Positions 3,956 through 10,295 of a stretch of DNA of 43,937 bases are shown one piece after another. The DNA is from Acidobacteriota bacterium. Its GTDB lineage: Bacteria; Acidobacteriota; Vicinamibacteria; Vicinamibacterales; UBA2999. The notes beneath the pieces are model-generated. The model was not told the origin of the DNA and made no database searches. It saw only the letters and a program-made list of their open reading frames with translations. Numbering within the stretch: position 1 is the stretch's first letter; each line of letters starts with the position of its first letter. The stretch lies in NCBI GenBank assembly GCA_016871195.1, contig VFZN01000020.1, forward strand, positions 1 to 43,937. Reading direction: 5' to 3'. The translations under genes and the position numbers were made by a program.

Positions 3956-5701
3956 ATGCGTCACCGACTTGCTGTCTTCCTCGCCGTCGCCGGCCTCGCG
4001 GCCTGTGTGCCGTCTACGCAACCACCACCGGCGGCACCATTCTCGGTGGTCGAGGCCACCATTCCCGAGATGCAGGCGGCGATGGCCGCCGGGCGCATCA
4101 CCTCGCGCGAGCTGGTCACGCAGTATCTGACCCGCATTGCCGTCTACGAAGACGGCCTCAACGCCGTCATCGCCGTGAATCCGAAGGCCCTCGAACAGGC
4201 CGAGGCCCTCGATCGCGAGCGCGCGGCTGGCAAACTGCGCGGCCCGCTGCACGGCCTTCCCGTGGCGCTCAAGGACAACATCCACACGTCGTTCATGCCG
4301 ACGACCGGTGGGGCGTTGGCCTTCGAGGGTCTGGTGCCTCCCTACGACGCCACACTCACCACGCACCTCATCGAGGCGGGTGCCGTCATCATCGCCAAGA
4401 CCATGATGACCGAGCTCGCCAACTGGGTAGCGAACGGCATGCCCGGGAACTACAACGCGCTGGAAGGGTACGGCTTCAATCCGTATGACCCCCGGCGCGA
4501 TCCCCGCGGCCTCATGCCGCTGGCGCCGAATGCACCGTCTAGTGCCACACCGCAGCGCTTCGACGATGGGCGACCCGTGCTGGGAACGGGAGGCTCGAGC
4601 TCAGGCACGGGAACGGCCGCGAACTTCTGGGCGGCCAATGTCGGCAGCGAAACGTCGGGGTCCATTCTGAGTCCGTCGAATCAGAACATGCTGGCCGGCA
4701 TCAAGCCCACCGTCGGGCGCATCAGCCGGTACGGCGTCATTCCGATCACCGCCGATCAGGATACGGCGGGACCGATGGCGCGCACCGTCACCGACGCTGC
4801 CATTCTGCTGGGCGCCATGGAAGGCAGCGCGCCTGATCCGAATGACGCCGCGACCTCGGCCTGTCAGGCCCCTCCGAACCGTGATTACACCGCATTCCTC
4901 AAAGCCGACGCGCTGAAGGGCGCACGCATCGGCATTCCGCGTGCGAGCTACTACGACCAGGTCACACTGCCCGGAAGCACCGAGCCACGTGGCGGACTCA
5001 ACGCGGCCCAGCGTGCCGCGATGGATGAGGCGATCGTGGTGCTGCGTCAGGCTGGTGCGGAGATCATCGATGTGGACATCCCGAGCGTCGTCGCCACCGA
5101 CCCGGCGAAGAACCTGCTGCTGTGGGGCACCTGTGCAGGGCCGGCCGATGTGCGAGGCAAGGATGCCAACTGCTCGTCTGCGCTCAAATACGGCATGAAG
5201 CGCGACTTCAACGCCTGGCTGGCCTCGCTCGGGGCCTCCGCACCAGTCAAGTCACTGACGGAGCTTCGCGAGTGGAATCTCGCGCACGCGAACATGGGCG
5301 CCATCAAGTACGCGCAGGCGCAGCTTGATGTCTCGGACGAAGTGGATCTGGAGCGCGACCGTGCCAAGTGGGAAGCGGACCGCAGGAAGGACATCGAACT
5401 GGCGGCCACCACCGGCATCGATGCGGCGCTGAAGTCCGCCAATCTCGATGCGTTGCTGTTCCCCGGCGCCTCGGGCGCGGCGATCTCGGCCAAGCCCGGC
5501 TATCCCACCGTCATCGTGCCGTTTGCGACCGTGCCCAACACGCCGCCGGGGGGGCCACTGCCGGACGGCTTCAACGCCCGCCCTGCCCCATACGGTGTCA
5601 GCTTCGCCGGCACCGCGTGCAGTGAACCGACGCTGCTCGGCCTGGCCTATGCCTTCGAACAGCTGACGAAGCGACGCGTGCCGCCGCCGGGCATGCCGTA
5701 G
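3956..5701 (+). CDS. Lipoprotein amidase (amidase-signature family)
   Basis: Amidase-signature enzymes hydrolyse C-N bonds of amides with a Ser-cisSer-Lys triad. The 581-residue protein begins with a lipoprotein signal peptide (lipobox LAAC, Cys 17), so it should be membrane-anchored outside the cytoplasm. Triad candidates are Lys 106 (LPVALKDN), cis-Ser at 214-215 (GTGGSSSG) and Ser 236 (ETSGSI). An insertion of about 30 residues (172-205) precedes the Ser-rich motif, as in peptide amidases. The start is the ATG at 3956; an in-frame GTG at 3938 would spoil the signal peptide. The substrate is unknown. A 12-bp perfect hairpin follows the stop. Confidence 0.87.
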   Translation: MRHRLAVFLAVAGLAACVPSTQPPPAAPFSVVEATIPEMQAAMAAGRITSRELVTQYLTRIAVYEDGLNAVIAVNPKALEQAEALDRERAAGKLRGPLHGLPVALKDNIHTSFMPTTGGALAFEGLVPPYDATLTTHLIEAGAVIIAKTMMTELANWVANGMPGNYNALEGYGFNPYDPRRDPRGLMPLAPNAPSSATPQRFDDGRPVLGTGGSSSGTGTAANFWAANVGSETSGSILSPSNQNMLAGIKPTVGRISRYGVIPITADQDTAGPMARTVTDAAILLGAMEGSAPDPNDAATSACQAPPNRDYTAFLKADALKGARIGIPRASYYDQVTLPGSTEPRGGLNAAQRAAMDEAIVVLRQAGAEIIDVDIPSVVATDPAKNLLLWGTCAGPADVRGKDANCSSALKYGMKRDFNAWLASLGASAPVKSLTELREWNLAHANMGAIKYAQAQLDVSDEVDLERDRAKWEADRRKDIELAATTGIDAALKSANLDALLFPGASGAAISAKPGYPTVIVPFATVPNTPPGGPLPDGFNARPAPYGVSFAGTACSEPTLLGLAYAFEQLTKRRVPPPGMP

Positions 5702-5716
5702 CCCTCTGCCACCTGA

Positions 5717-5747
5717 AGGCGCTGCGCCACGAGAGGGCGCAGCGCCT
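5717..5747 (+). terminator. Perfect 12-bp hairpin after the amidase
   Basis: Arms AGGCGCTGCGCC (5717-5728) and its exact reverse complement (5736-5747) enclose a 7-nt loop, 15 bp past the amidase stop. There is no T-run, so it is either a terminator without a U-tract or an mRNA-stabilising 3' hairpin. The symmetry means it could act on both strands. Confidence 0.5.
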
Positions 5748-5782
5748 GACGACGGCCTTGCTGCTGCCCTCGGACGCCGATC

Positions 5783-6046
5783 ATGCCCACGCCCCGGAAG
5801 ATCATCGCCTATGTGGCGACCAGCGCTGACGGCTATATCGCGCGCCCCAACGGCGATGTCGAGTGGCTCAACCGCCGGCCCGACACCATCGACTACGGCA
5901 TGCGGCGGTTCTATGCCTCAGTCGATACGATTTTGTGGGGACGCAAGACGTACGACTGGCTGCTCGGGCCCGTCATGGTCGCCGGCACCGGCGATCGGCA
6001 CGGACGCTGGCGCACCTTTGTGGGCGTGGGTCGCATCTTCCGCTGA
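5783..6046 (+). pseudogene. Truncated DHFR/RibD C-terminal-like protein
   Basis: The 87-residue product has the N-terminal part of the RibD-C/dihydrofolate-reductase-like family. IIAYVATSADGYIARPNGDVEWL corresponds to the first strand and loop, and SVDTILWGRKTYDWLLG to the nucleotide-binding GRKTYE-type motif. Full-length relatives are about 170-190 residues; here the match stops near residue 66 and the frame closes after an unrelated Arg/Gly-rich end. I found no continuation of the family in the other two frames up to the next hairpin, so the 3' half seems deleted rather than frameshifted. Probably a gene remnant without enzyme function. It lies between two perfect inverted repeats. Confidence 0.6.
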
Positions 6047-6095
6047 CAGGCCCGCGCGCACAGGCGCCACATCCGATCAGCGCCCCGAAACGACA

Positions 6096-6130
6096 ACACG
6101 CCTGAGCCCCTGGTCGGGACTCAGGCGTGT
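6096..6130. terminator. Perfect 11-bp hairpin between convergent genes
   Basis: ACACGCCTGAG (6096-6106) and CTCAGGCGTGT (6120-6130) pair perfectly around a 13-nt loop. The hairpin sits between the 3' ends of the DHFR remnant (plus) and the 80-residue protein gene (minus), the usual place for a bidirectional terminator. On the minus strand the stem is followed by TGTCGTTT, a weak U-tract. Confidence 0.5.
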
Positions 6131-6152
6131 CAGTGAAGTGAGCGCAGGGTGA

Positions 6153-6395
6153 CTAGGGCTCAACCGGCTCAGCGTCTTCCTCAGACGCCTCGCCATCGAG
6201 CTCGTCACCCCACGGATTTGGCTGAGGCCCCGGCACGATCCCTGCAATATCAGGGTCTTCCCCAGGGTCGCGCGGACCAGCCATTGAGCGTCGCACCTTG
6301 GCTTCTTCGCGGCGCGCCGTCTTCTGCTGCTGCCGCTCGGCGCGCGCGCGCTCACGCTCGCGCTTGCCTCGGCCCATTGGTCCTCGTACGGCCAT
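6153..6395 (-). CDS. Small charged hypothetical protein (80 aa)
   Basis: I do not recognise a named family. The N-terminal half is strongly basic and probably one long helix (GRGKRERERARAERQQQK, then Arg/Glu/Lys-rich). The C-terminal half holds a DPDIAGIVPGPQPNPWGDE segment and an acidic tail. A GAGGAG ribosome-binding site sits 4 nt before the ATG at 6395. The gene starts 39 nt after the RRM protein gene on the same strand, so the two are probably co-transcribed. A basic helix next to an RNA-binding protein makes nucleic-acid or ribosome association plausible, but this is inference. Confidence 0.7.
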   Translation of the reverse strand: MAVRGPMGRGKRERERARAERQQQKTARREEAKVRRSMAGPRDPGEDPDIAGIVPGPQPNPWGDELDGEASEEDAEPVEP

Positions 6396-6434
6396 GTTGC
6401 TCCTCAGTCAGGGCGCACCTTCAGGCGCGCGTGG

Positions 6435-6803
6435 TTACCAGCGGGGTTCGCGACGGCGGTTGTTGCCGCCACCACCACCGTAGCCACCACCACCGAAGCC
6501 GCCGCCGCCACCGCGACGGTCGCCACCGTCGCCGCCGAAACCACCCGCCCGGGGCACCTTCGGACGTGCCTCGTTGATCGCCAGCGTACGGCCACCCAAC
6601 TGGGTGTTGTTCAGCTGATCGACCGCCTTCTGTGCACCTTCTTCCGTGGACATCTCGACGAACGCGAAGCCACGCGCACGACCAGTCATCTGATCGCGCA
6701 TCACAGTCACCGTCTCGACGGCATCGACCTGGCTGAACAGATCGTGCAACTCATCCTCTGTCGTCTGAAACGGCAGATTACCAACAAACAGCTTGCGTCC
6801 CAT
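6435..6803 (-). CDS. RRM-domain RNA-binding protein with Gly-rich tail
   Basis: The 122-residue protein has a single RNA-recognition motif with RNP2 KLFVGNLPF (residues 4-12) and RNP1 RGFAFVEM (44-51). A Gly/Arg-rich tail follows (about 85-122) and ends in NNRRREPRW. This is the layout of cyanobacterial Rbp and other bacterial glycine-rich RNA-binding proteins, which bind single-stranded RNA and are often cold-regulated. The start is the ATG at 6803 preceded by GGGAG; a much longer open frame upstream is not credible because the homology begins at MGRKLFVGN. The leader contains a strong sense-strand terminator. The 80-residue gene follows. Confidence 0.93.
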   Translation of the reverse strand: MGRKLFVGNLPFQTTEDELHDLFSQVDAVETVTVMRDQMTGRARGFAFVEMSTEEGAQKAVDQLNNTQLGGRTLAINEARPKVPRAGGFGGDGGDRRGGGGGFGGGGYGGGGGNNRRREPRW

Positions 6804-6840
6804 CGTCACTCCCACTATCGGTGTGCACCGGCGTCCAAAG

Positions 6841-6872
6841 AAAAAAAAGGGCCCAGAGATGAGGGCCCCTTT
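6841..6872 (-). terminator. Intrinsic terminator/attenuator in the RRM gene leader
   Basis: Read on the minus strand, GGGCCC (6868-6863), an 8-nt loop and GGGCCC (6854-6849) form a 6-bp all-GC stem, extendable by A-U pairs past one bulge. Eight consecutive T residues (6848-6841) follow directly. This is a textbook Rho-independent terminator, oriented with the RRM gene and ending 37 nt before its ATG. No minus-strand gene lies upstream that it would otherwise serve, so it probably acts in the 5' leader. Confidence 0.75.
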
Positions 6873-6900
6873 CTCCGGTGTCTCAACTACCGTTGGGAGC

Positions 6901-6928
6901 CTAACACATTTAACAGTCGAAATAGCAA
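6901..6928 (-). promoter_or_regulatory. Possible promoter of the RRM gene
   Basis: On the minus strand TTGCTA (6928-6923) and TGTTAG (6906-6901) are separated by 16 bp in a locally AT-richer stretch. The predicted start near 6894 would give a leader of about 90 nt that includes the terminator. An overlapping alternative -10 is TTAAAT (6912-6907). Confidence 0.35.
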
Positions 6929-6950
6929 GCGGAAACTGCGCGAGGCCGCC

Positions 6951-6956
6951 CATAAT
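6951..6956 (+). promoter_or_regulatory. -10-like box (CATAAT) of the TonB receptor gene
   Basis: CATAAT lies exactly 6 nt before the ATG at 6963, so transcription would begin at or beside the start codon. No -35 box is clear. The same 6-nt spacing recurs before several other genes in the window. Confidence 0.4.
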
Positions 6957-6962
6957 CGGGGG

Positions 6963-9140
6963 ATGCGCGCTGCTGCAGCTGCCATGGTCCTGCTGCTCGC
7001 GGCTCTGCCCGCACACGCGTGGACCGCGCGGCTTGTATCTACCGCCGGTGCCCCAGTCACCGGGGCACTGGTCACCATTCTTGGACGCACCGGCGAAGCC
7101 ACAACCGACGGCGACGGACGGTTCACCTGGAAGCCAGACCCTGCCCCGCCCCTTGAAATCCTCGTCGTCCTGCGCGACGGCACCTACATGAAGCCGGTGG
7201 TCATCGAGGAGATTTCTGGCGGGATACAGACCATTGTCCTCTCCCCGCTGCTCAGTGAAGCCATCGTCGTCACCGGTGCCGCGCCTGGCATCGAGTCCAC
7301 GCCCGGATCGGCCGCCACGACACTCTCCGGCCGGGATGTGCAGGTGCGACAGCCCACCAGTCTGATGCAGGCCATTGAGAATGTCGCCGGCGTGAATCAG
7401 GTCTCGGAAGGACAGGCGGCCGTGCCGGCGGTGCGGGGCCTCGCGCGCGGCCGCACGCTCATCCTGATCGACGGTGCGCGTGTCACGTCGGAACGCCGGG
7501 TCGGTCCCAGTGCCCTCGCTCTCGACCCCAGCGTCATCGACGCCGTGGACGTCGCACGCGGCCCGGGCTCGGTCGCCTACGGCTCTGACGCCTTCGGCGG
7601 CATCATTGCCGTGCGCACGCGGCGGGTCGCCGAAGCCGCGCCGTGGCAGGGCCAGATCTCCGGACTGCTGGGGGCCGGTGTACCCGAGCTGCGTGGATCG
7701 GCACTGGTCGCCCGCGGACTTCCGCACGGAAGCGTGCTCGTCAATGTGCATGCACGCCAGGCCGACGACTGGGTGAGTCCCACCGGGCCGATCTTCAACT
7801 CCGGCTTCCGCGATCATGGCGTGCTGGCCCGAGTGGATCAACGCGTCGCCGGCAACCTGCTGACCATCGGGTGGCAGAGTGATCTCGGTCGCGACATCGA
7901 GCGCCCGCGCAACAACTCGCGCACCGTGCGCTTCTATTACCCCTGGGACGATTCACACCGGCTGACCGCCAGCTATCAGTTGGCGCGCCTGCCTGGATTC
8001 ACACGCGGCCAGGTCACCGCCTTCTGGGGACACTCACGACAGCGCACCGATCAGGATCGGTTCGCCACCGCCACCACAGGTCGCACGATTGAGCGCGCGG
8101 ACATCTCGGCCACCGACTATGCCGTGCGCGCCTTCGGTGAACGACTGCTGGGCGCGGCACGACTGGAAGTCGGCATCGACATCAACGGGCGTCGCGGACT
8201 GCACGCCGTCGACGACCTGCTGACCTACGGACTCACCGGTACCCTGATCTCGACCCGACCCAACATCTCGGTCGCGTCAGCCCGCCGCGCAGACACGGGT
8301 CTCTACGCGTCCATCGAGTCAGCGGTGACTTCATCGCTCTCGCTGGGCGCGGGGATCAGGGCCGATCTCGTGACCAACGCCAATCGCGACGGGTACTTCG
8401 GCAGCCTCACGCGCCGCACGACCGGGCAGTCGGGGTACGTTGCCGTCACCGCCCGACTGCACGAAGGCCTCAGTACCACCCTGCAACTGGCGCGCGGCTT
8501 CCGCGATCCCATGCTGTCCGACCGGTTTTATCGCGGACCCACGGGGCGGGGATTCATCACCGGGAATCCTGACCTGTCACCCGAGGCAAGCCTGCAGGCC
8601 GACTGGACGCTGCGCTACACCGCCAGGCGCTGGCGGGCGCTCGTGGCCGCCTACGACTATGCCATCGACGATCTCGTCGAGCGCTATCAGACGACGATCG
8701 ACACCTTCTTCTTCCGGAATCGCGGTCGCGCACGCATCCGTGGCGTCGAACTCGAGTCGCAGATGCAGCTGGGCTGGGGAGTCAGCCTCGACCTCGCATC
8801 GCAGCTCGCACGGGGTCGTGCGACCGATACGCAATCCGCACTCGACGATATCAGCCCGTTCACGATCACCGCCATGGTGCGCAAGGCCTTTGGTGCCAGA
8901 GGCTACGCGCAGGTGCGCACGGCGCGATTGGCCGACGACAATCGGCCGGGGCCGACCGAACGCGTGGTGCCGGGCTATACGCTCGTCGACGTGCAGGGGG
9001 GCTATTCGCCCTGGCGACGGACAGAGCTCAGGCTGCAGATGCGCAACCTGTTCGACCACGAGTATCTGGCCAGCCAGGATGTCCGAACCACGACGGCCCC
9101 GGGGCGTCAGGGTTCGCTGACGGTCGCCGTGCGTTTCTGA
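6963..9140 (+). CDS. TonB-dependent outer-membrane receptor
   Basis: The 725-residue protein has a signal peptide (about 1-19, ending AHA), then a carboxypeptidase-regulatory-like domain (about 20-90) typical of Bacteroidota and Acidobacteriota receptors. A TonB-box-like EAIVVTGA follows. The plug domain (about 115-225) contains ALIDG-type LIDGARV and GPGSVAYGSDAFGGIIAVRTR. The rest is a 22-strand-type beta barrel ending in LTVAVRF with a terminal Phe, as needed for outer-membrane insertion. Such receptors import siderophores, cobalamin, sugars or other ligands using TonB energy; no neighbour indicates the ligand. The start at 6963 gives the signal peptide. The stop abuts that of the convergent aminotransferase with no gap. 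Confidence 0.92.
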   Translation: MRAAAAAMVLLLAALPAHAWTARLVSTAGAPVTGALVTILGRTGEATTDGDGRFTWKPDPAPPLEILVVLRDGTYMKPVVIEEISGGIQTIVLSPLLSEAIVVTGAAPGIESTPGSAATTLSGRDVQVRQPTSLMQAIENVAGVNQVSEGQAAVPAVRGLARGRTLILIDGARVTSERRVGPSALALDPSVIDAVDVARGPGSVAYGSDAFGGIIAVRTRRVAEAAPWQGQISGLLGAGVPELRGSALVARGLPHGSVLVNVHARQADDWVSPTGPIFNSGFRDHGVLARVDQRVAGNLLTIGWQSDLGRDIERPRNNSRTVRFYYPWDDSHRLTASYQLARLPGFTRGQVTAFWGHSRQRTDQDRFATATTGRTIERADISATDYAVRAFGERLLGAARLEVGIDINGRRGLHAVDDLLTYGLTGTLISTRPNISVASARRADTGLYASIESAVTSSLSLGAGIRADLVTNANRDGYFGSLTRRTTGQSGYVAVTARLHEGLSTTLQLARGFRDPMLSDRFYRGPTGRGFITGNPDLSPEASLQADWTLRYTARRWRALVAAYDYAIDDLVERYQTTIDTFFFRNRGRARIRGVELESQMQLGWGVSLDLASQLARGRATDTQSALDDISPFTITAMVRKAFGARGYAQVRTARLADDNRPGPTERVVPGYTLVDVQGGYSPWRRTELRLQMRNLFDHEYLASQDVRTTTAPGRQGSLTVAVRF

Positions 9141-10295
9141 TCAGCTACGTGCCCCGTGCAGCGCATCGAGCAGTGCCTCGATGTCGCGGGCATCGTTATA
9201 CACATGCGGCGACACGCGGATGGCGGTGCCCCGGACGGACACATGCACACGGCGCTCGCGCAGCCGCTCGGCCACCGACACGACGTCCACGGCCGCTGGC
9301 ACGCGCAGCCCCAGCAGGTGCCCGCCGCGATAGTCGGCATCTTCCACCGTGTAGCCAAGCGCCCGGACCGTATCGACCAGCGGGGCCGTCAGGTGACGCG
9401 TGTAGGCCTGAATGGCCTCTGGTGTCCAGTCGAGCAGCTGCTCGAGTGCCGCAATGGCCATCGGCATGAGGGCAAAGTTGCTGCGCTCACCCACGTCATA
9501 GCGCACGGCCCCCGGCTGATAGTCGTCGCGATAGTTCACGAGATCTTTGAAATGCTCACTGCCGGCGCGCCCAATCCAGGTCTCTTCCAGTGGCACGCCG
9601 TCATCGAGGCGGGGCCCGAGATAGGCGAAGCCAAGCGAGTACGGCCCCATGAGCCACTTATACGCTGCGGTCACCAGTATGTCGGGCTGCACACGGGTGA
9701 CATCAAACGGCAGCGCCCCAATCGACTGGGTGCCGTCAATGACGAGCGCTGCCCCGACCTCGCGCGCACGTGCGCCAATGGCCTCGAGGTCGAAGCGCGT
9801 GCCATCCGTCCAGTGCACATGTCCGAGGGCCACCACCGCCGTGCCGGGCACGATGTGCTCAAGCAGTCGCTGGTTCCAGTCCCGCCCCCGGGCAAAGCTG
9901 CCTTCGGGTGCCGCCACCGTCTGCAGCTCGGCCCCCTGCGCTGCGGCCACACGCCTCCACGGGTGCACATTCGCTGGAAACTGTTCGTGCGTCACGACGA
10001 TGCGCTGGCCGCGAGCGACGGGCAGATTGCGCGCGGCGATGGCCAGGCCGTACGACGCCGACGGCACAATCGCAATGCGCGGCGGGTCGGCGTGCACCAG
10101 TGAGGCGAACAGCTGCCGCGCACGGTCTGCTTCGACAAAGAAGTCGCTCGGCGTCAGGCGCGCCGGCACGCGCTTTCGGCGCACACCTGACATCCCCGCT
10201 GCCTCGACCGCCTGCGACAGCGGCGACATGTACGCGCAGTTGAGATAGTGCTCGTCGTCCGGCAGCGAGAACTGCGCCTTCTGGCACATCAGCAT
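9141..10295 (-). CDS. Class V aminotransferase (PLP enzyme)
   Basis: This 384-residue PLP enzyme belongs to the class V family (cysteine desulfurases, isopenicillin-N epimerase, kynureninase-like). Visible motifs are the phosphate/ring-binding PSASYGLA (78-84), Asp 187 and Gln 190 in VIDGTQSIGA (PLP ring contacts) and the Schiff-base Lys 213 in TAAYKWLMG. A cysteine-desulfurase active-site Cys loop is not evident, which argues for an aminotransferase, lyase or epimerase role rather than sulfur transfer. The ATG at 10295 lies 3 nt after the queD-like stop, so the two are co-transcribed; an alternative ATG is at 10289. The specific reaction is unknown. Confidence 0.85.
   Translation of the reverse strand: MLMCQKAQFSLPDDEHYLNCAYMSPLSQAVEAAGMSGVRRKRVPARLTPSDFFVEADRARQLFASLVHADPPRIAIVPSASYGLAIAARNLPVARGQRIVVTHEQFPANVHPWRRVAAAQGAELQTVAAPEGSFARGRDWNQRLLEHIVPGTAVVALGHVHWTDGTRFDLEAIGARAREVGAALVIDGTQSIGALPFDVTRVQPDILVTAAYKWLMGPYSLGFAYLGPRLDDGVPLEETWIGRAGSEHFKDLVNYRDDYQPGAVRYDVGERSNFALMPMAIAALEQLLDWTPEAIQAYTRHLTAPLVDTVRALGYTVEDADYRGGHLLGLRVPAAVDVVSVAERLRERRVHVSVRGTAIRVSPHVYNDARDIEALLDALHGARS

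Follow-up and report, generated by a model that had tools for sequence, protein, structure and literature searches.

The RRM operon and its leader

The window, by which we mean the whole stretch of DNA analysed, comprises 43,937 nt of an Acidobacteriota bacterium (Vicinamibacterales; UBA2999; assembly GCA_016871195.1, contig VFZN01000020.1, positions 1–43,937). Its minus strand encodes, at 6435–6803, a 122-residue protein made of a single RRM (Pfam RRM_1 at residues 5–74, E 1.3e-24) followed by a glycine-rich tail, which is the arrangement of the bacterial single-RRM glycine-rich proteins. RRM matches were found in 56 of the 59 genomes searched, and 328 distinct sequences of solved structures match the protein, with largely eukaryotic RRM proteins among the 60 listed. 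At 6153–6395, on the same strand, lies the probable second gene of the operon, coding for a small basic protein of 80 residues without a Pfam match at E 0.001. This protein begins with MAVRGPMGRGKRERERARAERQQQK and accompanies RRM genes in two genera as well as in several others. Of the 48 loci examined, 22 have it in the vicinity of the RRM gene, one of these 22 on the upstream side of RRM; 13 of the 48 represent additional RRM copies from the genus, and some of the loci end close to the RRM gene. The gene upstream of the RRM operon (6963–9140, plus strand) is divergent and encodes a TonB-dependent receptor (Pfam TonB beta-barrel, E 6.7e-30; Plug, E 9.1e-17).

We compared the locus across the genus (g1), represented by five genomes (G000–G004) that include the window's own. 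All five carry the RRM gene, the other four proteins being 82–92% identical to that of the window, and all five have a divergent upstream neighbour, which is a TonB receptor in G000 and G001, a DUF308 protein in G002 and G004 and a 7TM histidine kinase in G003.

The leader runs, 5' to 3' on the minus strand, from an extended -10 element, TGTTAGGCT (6898–6906), through GACACCGG (6875–6882), AGAAAG, a hairpin (6849–6868), a T8 tract (6841–6848), CTTTGGACG, CCGGTG (6826–6831) and the probable ribosome-binding site GGGAG (6809–6813), of which GGAG is conserved in the five genomes, to the ATG (6803–6801). The hairpin consists of two GGGCCC arms (6868–6863 and 6854–6849) enclosing the loop TCATCTCT (6862–6855), and its stem can be extended into the flanking A/T bases. 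An earlier note on this DNA had described a minus-strand GGGCCC hairpin with eight T residues, oriented like the gene and ending 37 nt (6840–6804) before its start codon, and this can be read directly from the sequence.

The same note had proposed a promoter, TTGCTA-16-TGTTAG, whose two halves are present at 6928–6923 and 6906–6901; the conserved part is the extended -10 element instead. The five congeners share GTGyTA(a/g)(c/g)(g/c)T 15–20 nt before GACACCGG, the window version being GTGTTAGGCT, which ends at 6898. The -10 is thereby moved by three bases, leaving TTGCTA at a spacing of 19 nt. From this promoter, which we assigned by consensus and conservation, transcription is predicted to start near 6891, and by eye no conserved promoter lies between hairpin and ATG in the five congeners. 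A short terminated RNA, previously put at about 55 nt, is still expected, with a length of rather ~50 nt. The CAAC-GGTA-GTTG hairpin suggested as part of a switch does exist at 6895–6884, but it is absent from the four relatives and its 5' arm precedes the predicted start. The terminator thus lies between a putative promoter and the first gene, in the orientation of that gene, which is the layout of a leader attenuator.

Terminator architecture and predicted strength

In all five congeners, the leader displays the sequence hallmarks of an intrinsic terminator, namely a G+C-rich stem, a short loop and a U-tract that follows directly, with at least four T residues immediately after the stem. The departures among the five are two broken U-tracts (TTTTCTC and TTTTCTA) and one stem with an A-C mismatch (G001).

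We scanned both strands of the window for stems of at least five G-C pairs with a loop of 3–9 nt, followed by at least six T in the next eight positions of which the first three are T. The RRM leader was the only site, whereas 20 dinucleotide shuffles yielded 0.25 on average. It was absent from the output of a separate automated terminator scan of positions 4000–10000, though it apparently satisfies the criteria stated for that program. The same type of scan, applied to 20 segments of 20 kb from this genome (400 kb in all), detected 8 sites versus 0.67 in shuffles, which indicates that canonical terminators seem to be few yet real in this organism; five of the eight follow a mechanically defined ORF end within 300 nt, the distance being 49 and 80 nt for the two strongest. 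The bare stem is unremarkable, since the genome contains 17 instances of the tail-less pattern GGGCCCN{3,9}GGGCCC and 15 of the reversed pattern. What is unusual about the RRM leader hairpin is its U-tract, its position and its conservation.

We graded the hairpins with d, a score of the d'Aubenton-Carafa type. The five RRM leaders all score positively, at 48.4 for the window and 39.6, 50.3, 26.2 and 17.6 for the others, and approach the two strong sites found at gene ends in the genome sample (61.7 and 53.0); of the hairpins at the 3' end of the RRM operon, that of the window reaches 1.6 and that of G002 17.3. The predicted energies of the five leader hairpins, -13.2 to -19.8 kcal/mol, are spread around the mean of -16.5 reported for 5' terminators (PMC2965389).

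Rfam detected nothing in the RRM leader at the gathering score, its only match in the window being a tRNA at 66–149. Permissive scans of the leaders of the window and of locus L003 returned only weak matches that fell far short of the gathering scores, the best E-values being 0.056 and 0.10.

Conservation within the genus

The core motif GCCCTCATYTCTGGGC is found once per genome in all five members of the genus, in each case immediately before the orthologous RRM gene, and is missing from the 38 remaining genomes of the family (43 searched). A covariance model of the element, run against 162 genomes of the order with stricter filters at the cost of some weak matches, recovered five strong matches (E ≤6.8e-16), all in the genus; the best E-values in 12 further genomes, 0.0034–0.096, were taken as chance. 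The element is therefore confined to one genus, as far as searched.

The five genomes agree in 27 of the 32 columns that extend from GACACCGG across the loop up to and including GGGC. Broken down by part, the invariant columns amount to 8/8 in GACACCGG, 7/10 in each stem arm, 7/8 in the loop and 6/6 in CCGGTG. By comparison, the neighbouring spacers, each of which was realigned separately and counted over gap-free columns, keep 2/15 after the -10, 3/11 between tail and CCGGTG and 2/7 between CCGGTG and GGAG, and the fourfold codon sites of the RRM gene keep 10/34. Since the columns of the element are kept and those of the spacers are not, the leader element is probably under selection as sequence. 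The earlier note had named absence of the hairpin from close relatives as evidence against it and had called for a comparison of leaders for conservation and covariation; the hairpin turned out to be present in all five genomes of the genus, whereas covariation is weak, amounting to one compensatory change in five sequences, which 184 of 500 shuffles equalled.

A possible outer helix

Besides being invariant, GACACCGG and CCGGTG have complementary sequences, and they bracket the terminator as the 5' and 3' strands of a possible outer helix. The CCGGTG strand is transcribed only upon read-through. The predicted pairing probability of this helix varies from 0.68 (G003) through 0.28 (G004), 0.21 (G002) and 0.07 (G001) to 0.03 (window); these low-to-moderate values result from competing foldings, often with an extended inner stem. 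The pair is thus likely to be a functional sequence whose structure is uncertain.

RRM leaders outside the genus

We scanned the loci of RRM relatives from mixed phyla, using stem and T criteria looser than those applied to the window. Out of the best 80 of 135 relatives, three of them apparently members of the genus, 79 loci could be scanned, one flank being too short. A leader hairpin with U-tract was found in the sense orientation in three loci, two of them from the genus, and in the antisense orientation in two; the G001 member was missed because of its stem mismatch. Such a leader does not look like a general feature of RRM genes.

Other conserved leaders precede RRM genes in related genera. 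In a second genus (g2), a GC hairpin occupies the same place after a TGGTA-type -10 in 9/9 genomes. This hairpin, GCTGTAGGGGA(A/G)G..CCGCC..GGCGG.., is nearly invariant and closely follows the promoter of the orthologous operon, at 1.3–2.1 kb into the locus (L006, L007, L011, L012 and L133–L137). Its pairs hold in 99% of alignment cells, covariation does not rise above shuffles (115/500), and its tail is poor, with d ranging from -41.0 to 10.5 over the six of nine sequences scored. The hairpins at the 3' end of the operon resemble the leader hairpin in four of the five g2 loci examined. A permissive Rfam scan of one g2 leader (L007) yielded weak matches only (best E 0.4).

Seven further loci (L008, L009, L015, L022, L024, L028 and L030) share a long conserved leader that is unrelated to that of g1. 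It precedes an orthologous RRM operon and contains the blocks GCTGAGCCCGCC ... GATTCGAG ... GACTCGC ... CTCCTGCGC. By eye, a CTCCTGC within it can pair with the Shine-Dalgarno sequence GCAGGAG in 6/7. Consensus folding of these type-B leaders with RNAalifold gave no support for a structure, the covariation term being unfavourable, and Rfam had no match in the five loci scanned. Further RRM copies of the genus (L031, L033–L038) have long leaders with common blocks, which by eye belong to at least two other types. RRM genes of this group may generally carry conserved leaders.

A model for the RRM leader

To our knowledge, the control of bacterial RRM genes is understood in few cases, and among the papers listed in searches of the literature collection used, no title or abstract opening describes a leader terminator for such a gene. 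We consider the RRM leader terminator to be real, conserved and probably functional; its sequence, position and conservation are observed directly.

The scheme that we infer for this leader, comprising promoter, termination, read-through and protein dependence, would proceed as follows. RNA polymerase would start near 6891 at the extended -10 promoter and, after ~50 nt, would in part of the rounds be halted by the GGGCCC hairpin with its U-tract; the remaining polymerases would read through into the operon of the RRM and small basic proteins. The throttle would most likely be set by a protein recognising the nascent hairpin, either the RRM protein itself, acting in feedback, or else a general factor, for example NusA. 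We found no cis antiterminator in the 29–34 nt before the loop in any of the five leaders, the RNA before the loop folding with -2.3 to -5.9 kcal/mol versus -23.1 to -28.9 kcal/mol for the terminated RNA, nor, by eye, a start codon for a leader peptide that would be common to the five 5' leader parts. Setting by a protein appears the most likely arrangement because an antiterminator is lacking and because the stem-loop and its flanks are conserved as sequence. Overall, we judge it reasonably likely that the leader terminator limits transcription of the operon, a statement that includes a constitutive variant; the narrower proposal that a protein sets the read-through is, taken by itself, tentative and somewhat doubtful.

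Feedback by the RRM protein on its own leader is putative, and a response of the terminator to cold or to translation, which the earlier note had also suggested, would be equally hypothetical. Feedback is attractive since predicted attenuators are enriched in operons of RNA-binding proteins: in B. subtilis, they are reported for 14% of the operons with an RNA-binding protein gene versus 5%, as data not shown (PMC2965389). In its fullest and rather improbable form, the model would have the RRM protein or NusA recognise a sequence-specific terminator hairpin in the leader of the RRM gene and set read-through, the GACACCGG/CCGGTG helix would mark the read-through mRNA for a second, post-transcriptional step, and sister genera would have swapped the leader device. 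If true, the leader would add to the rimP-leader another class of attenuator set by a protein, and its substitutes in sister genera would be the GC hairpin of g2 and the Shine-Dalgarno-pairing leader of several others.

The foremost alternative is a sub-case of limitation by the terminator, in which a fixed fraction of the polymerases leaving a strong promoter passes the hairpin and nothing is regulated. The lack of an antiterminator and of a common leader start codon agrees with such a constitutive dimmer, as does the difference in U-tract quality between species. A plain terminator would need neither the sequence of the loop nor that of GACACCGG, however, and both are kept while the spacers are not, so that we regard it as rather unlikely. 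Somewhat less credence goes to the idea that termination is incidental, the hairpin and outer helix serving mRNA stability or translation as a structured 5' leader that caps the 5' end or presents a U-rich bulge to the RRM protein. It would account for the invariance of both outer-helix strands even though only read-through RNA contains the 3' strand, and for the conserved GC hairpin of g2, which occupies the equivalent position and has a poor U-tract; against it, the stem is followed by T residues and d is positive throughout g1, and the predicted outer-helix probability is only low to moderate.

The terminated RNA of ~50 nt could also act in trans, as the product of a small RNA gene whose read-through expresses the RRM gene. 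A promoter-like element of its own, a terminator and a conserved loop would suit such a gene, but its single copy per genome always stands directly upstream of the RRM gene, its core motif is found nowhere else in the 43 family genomes and no Rfam small RNA family scores above gathering, which makes this explanation improbable. A DNA operator for a transcription factor, suggested by the palindromic GGGCCC arms, is highly improbable given that the conserved loop is asymmetric, that the U-tract is strand-specific and that the predicted start precedes the site. To a terminator of the upstream gene we assign practically no likelihood, and that of any upstream coding gene recognised in these loci is ruled out, as the neighbour is divergent in all five genomes and of three kinds.

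Comparison with known leader systems

CspD, a small RNA-binding cold-shock protein, reduces intrinsic termination at the SgrS terminator (PMC9765468). It has an OB-fold and acts on other genes, whereas the protein considered here has an RRM and its effect on termination is putative. The 5' UTRs of the cyanobacterial rbp genes contain conserved boxes for the cold response (PMC9333190), and these genes likewise join a conserved leader to a single-RRM, glycine-rich protein; the passages that describe the boxes mention no leader terminator.

The closest parallel is the rimP-leader (RF01770), which has a conserved stem and no antiterminator, and for which recognition by a protein has been proposed, with NusA as the best candidate (Naville and Gautheret 2010, PMC2965389). 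In both cases, a leader terminator precedes an operon with an RNA-related protein, and both combine a G-rich 5' arm with a C-rich 3' arm, GGGc(...)gCCC, a U-tract and a stem conserved in sequence, with no visible antiterminator (PMC2965389). The RRM leader differs by two further C-G pairs inside the stem (CC/GG), by its 8-nt UCAUYUCU loop and by the bracketing GACACCGG/CCGGTG; it also precedes an RRM gene rather than rimP-nusA-infB, and RF01770 is absent among its matches at E up to 10.

A hairpin of the rimP-leader type, assigned by position and motif, lies upstream of RimP in all five genomes of the genus (L173–L177, corresponding to G003, G004, G000, G002 and G001). The RF01770 model itself matched none of the five at E up to 10, and, of 14 control genomes, just one gave a score above the cut-off of the model. 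The layout there, an extended -10, 30–31 nt, AGTGGGC..GCCC(A/G)CT and a U-tract, is similar to that of the RRM leader, which is the stronger terminator by d (rimP-type, -3.3 to 27.6). In four of the five genomes, the rimP-type hairpin follows the stop of a long same-strand frame by 50–83 nt and might therefore also end that gene; the RRM case is cleaner because its neighbour is divergent. By eye, a small CTGG-NNAA-CCAG-like hairpin stands just before the rimP-type terminators. Searching the five genomes for GGGC..GCCC with a broken U-tract revealed no wider set of leaders; of the five sites, two are RRM leaders and one is a rimP hairpin, and one of the remaining two sits between converging frames.

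The RRM leader terminator belongs to a known kind and, as far as searched, is restricted to one genus. Its anatomy, similar to that of the rimP-type hairpin, together with its higher d suggests a transcription attenuator that is probably set by a protein. Being short and conserved, and with no antiterminator visible in its leader, it constitutes an easily tested candidate for protein-set attenuation, for which the rimP-type hairpin of the same genomes offers a comparison.
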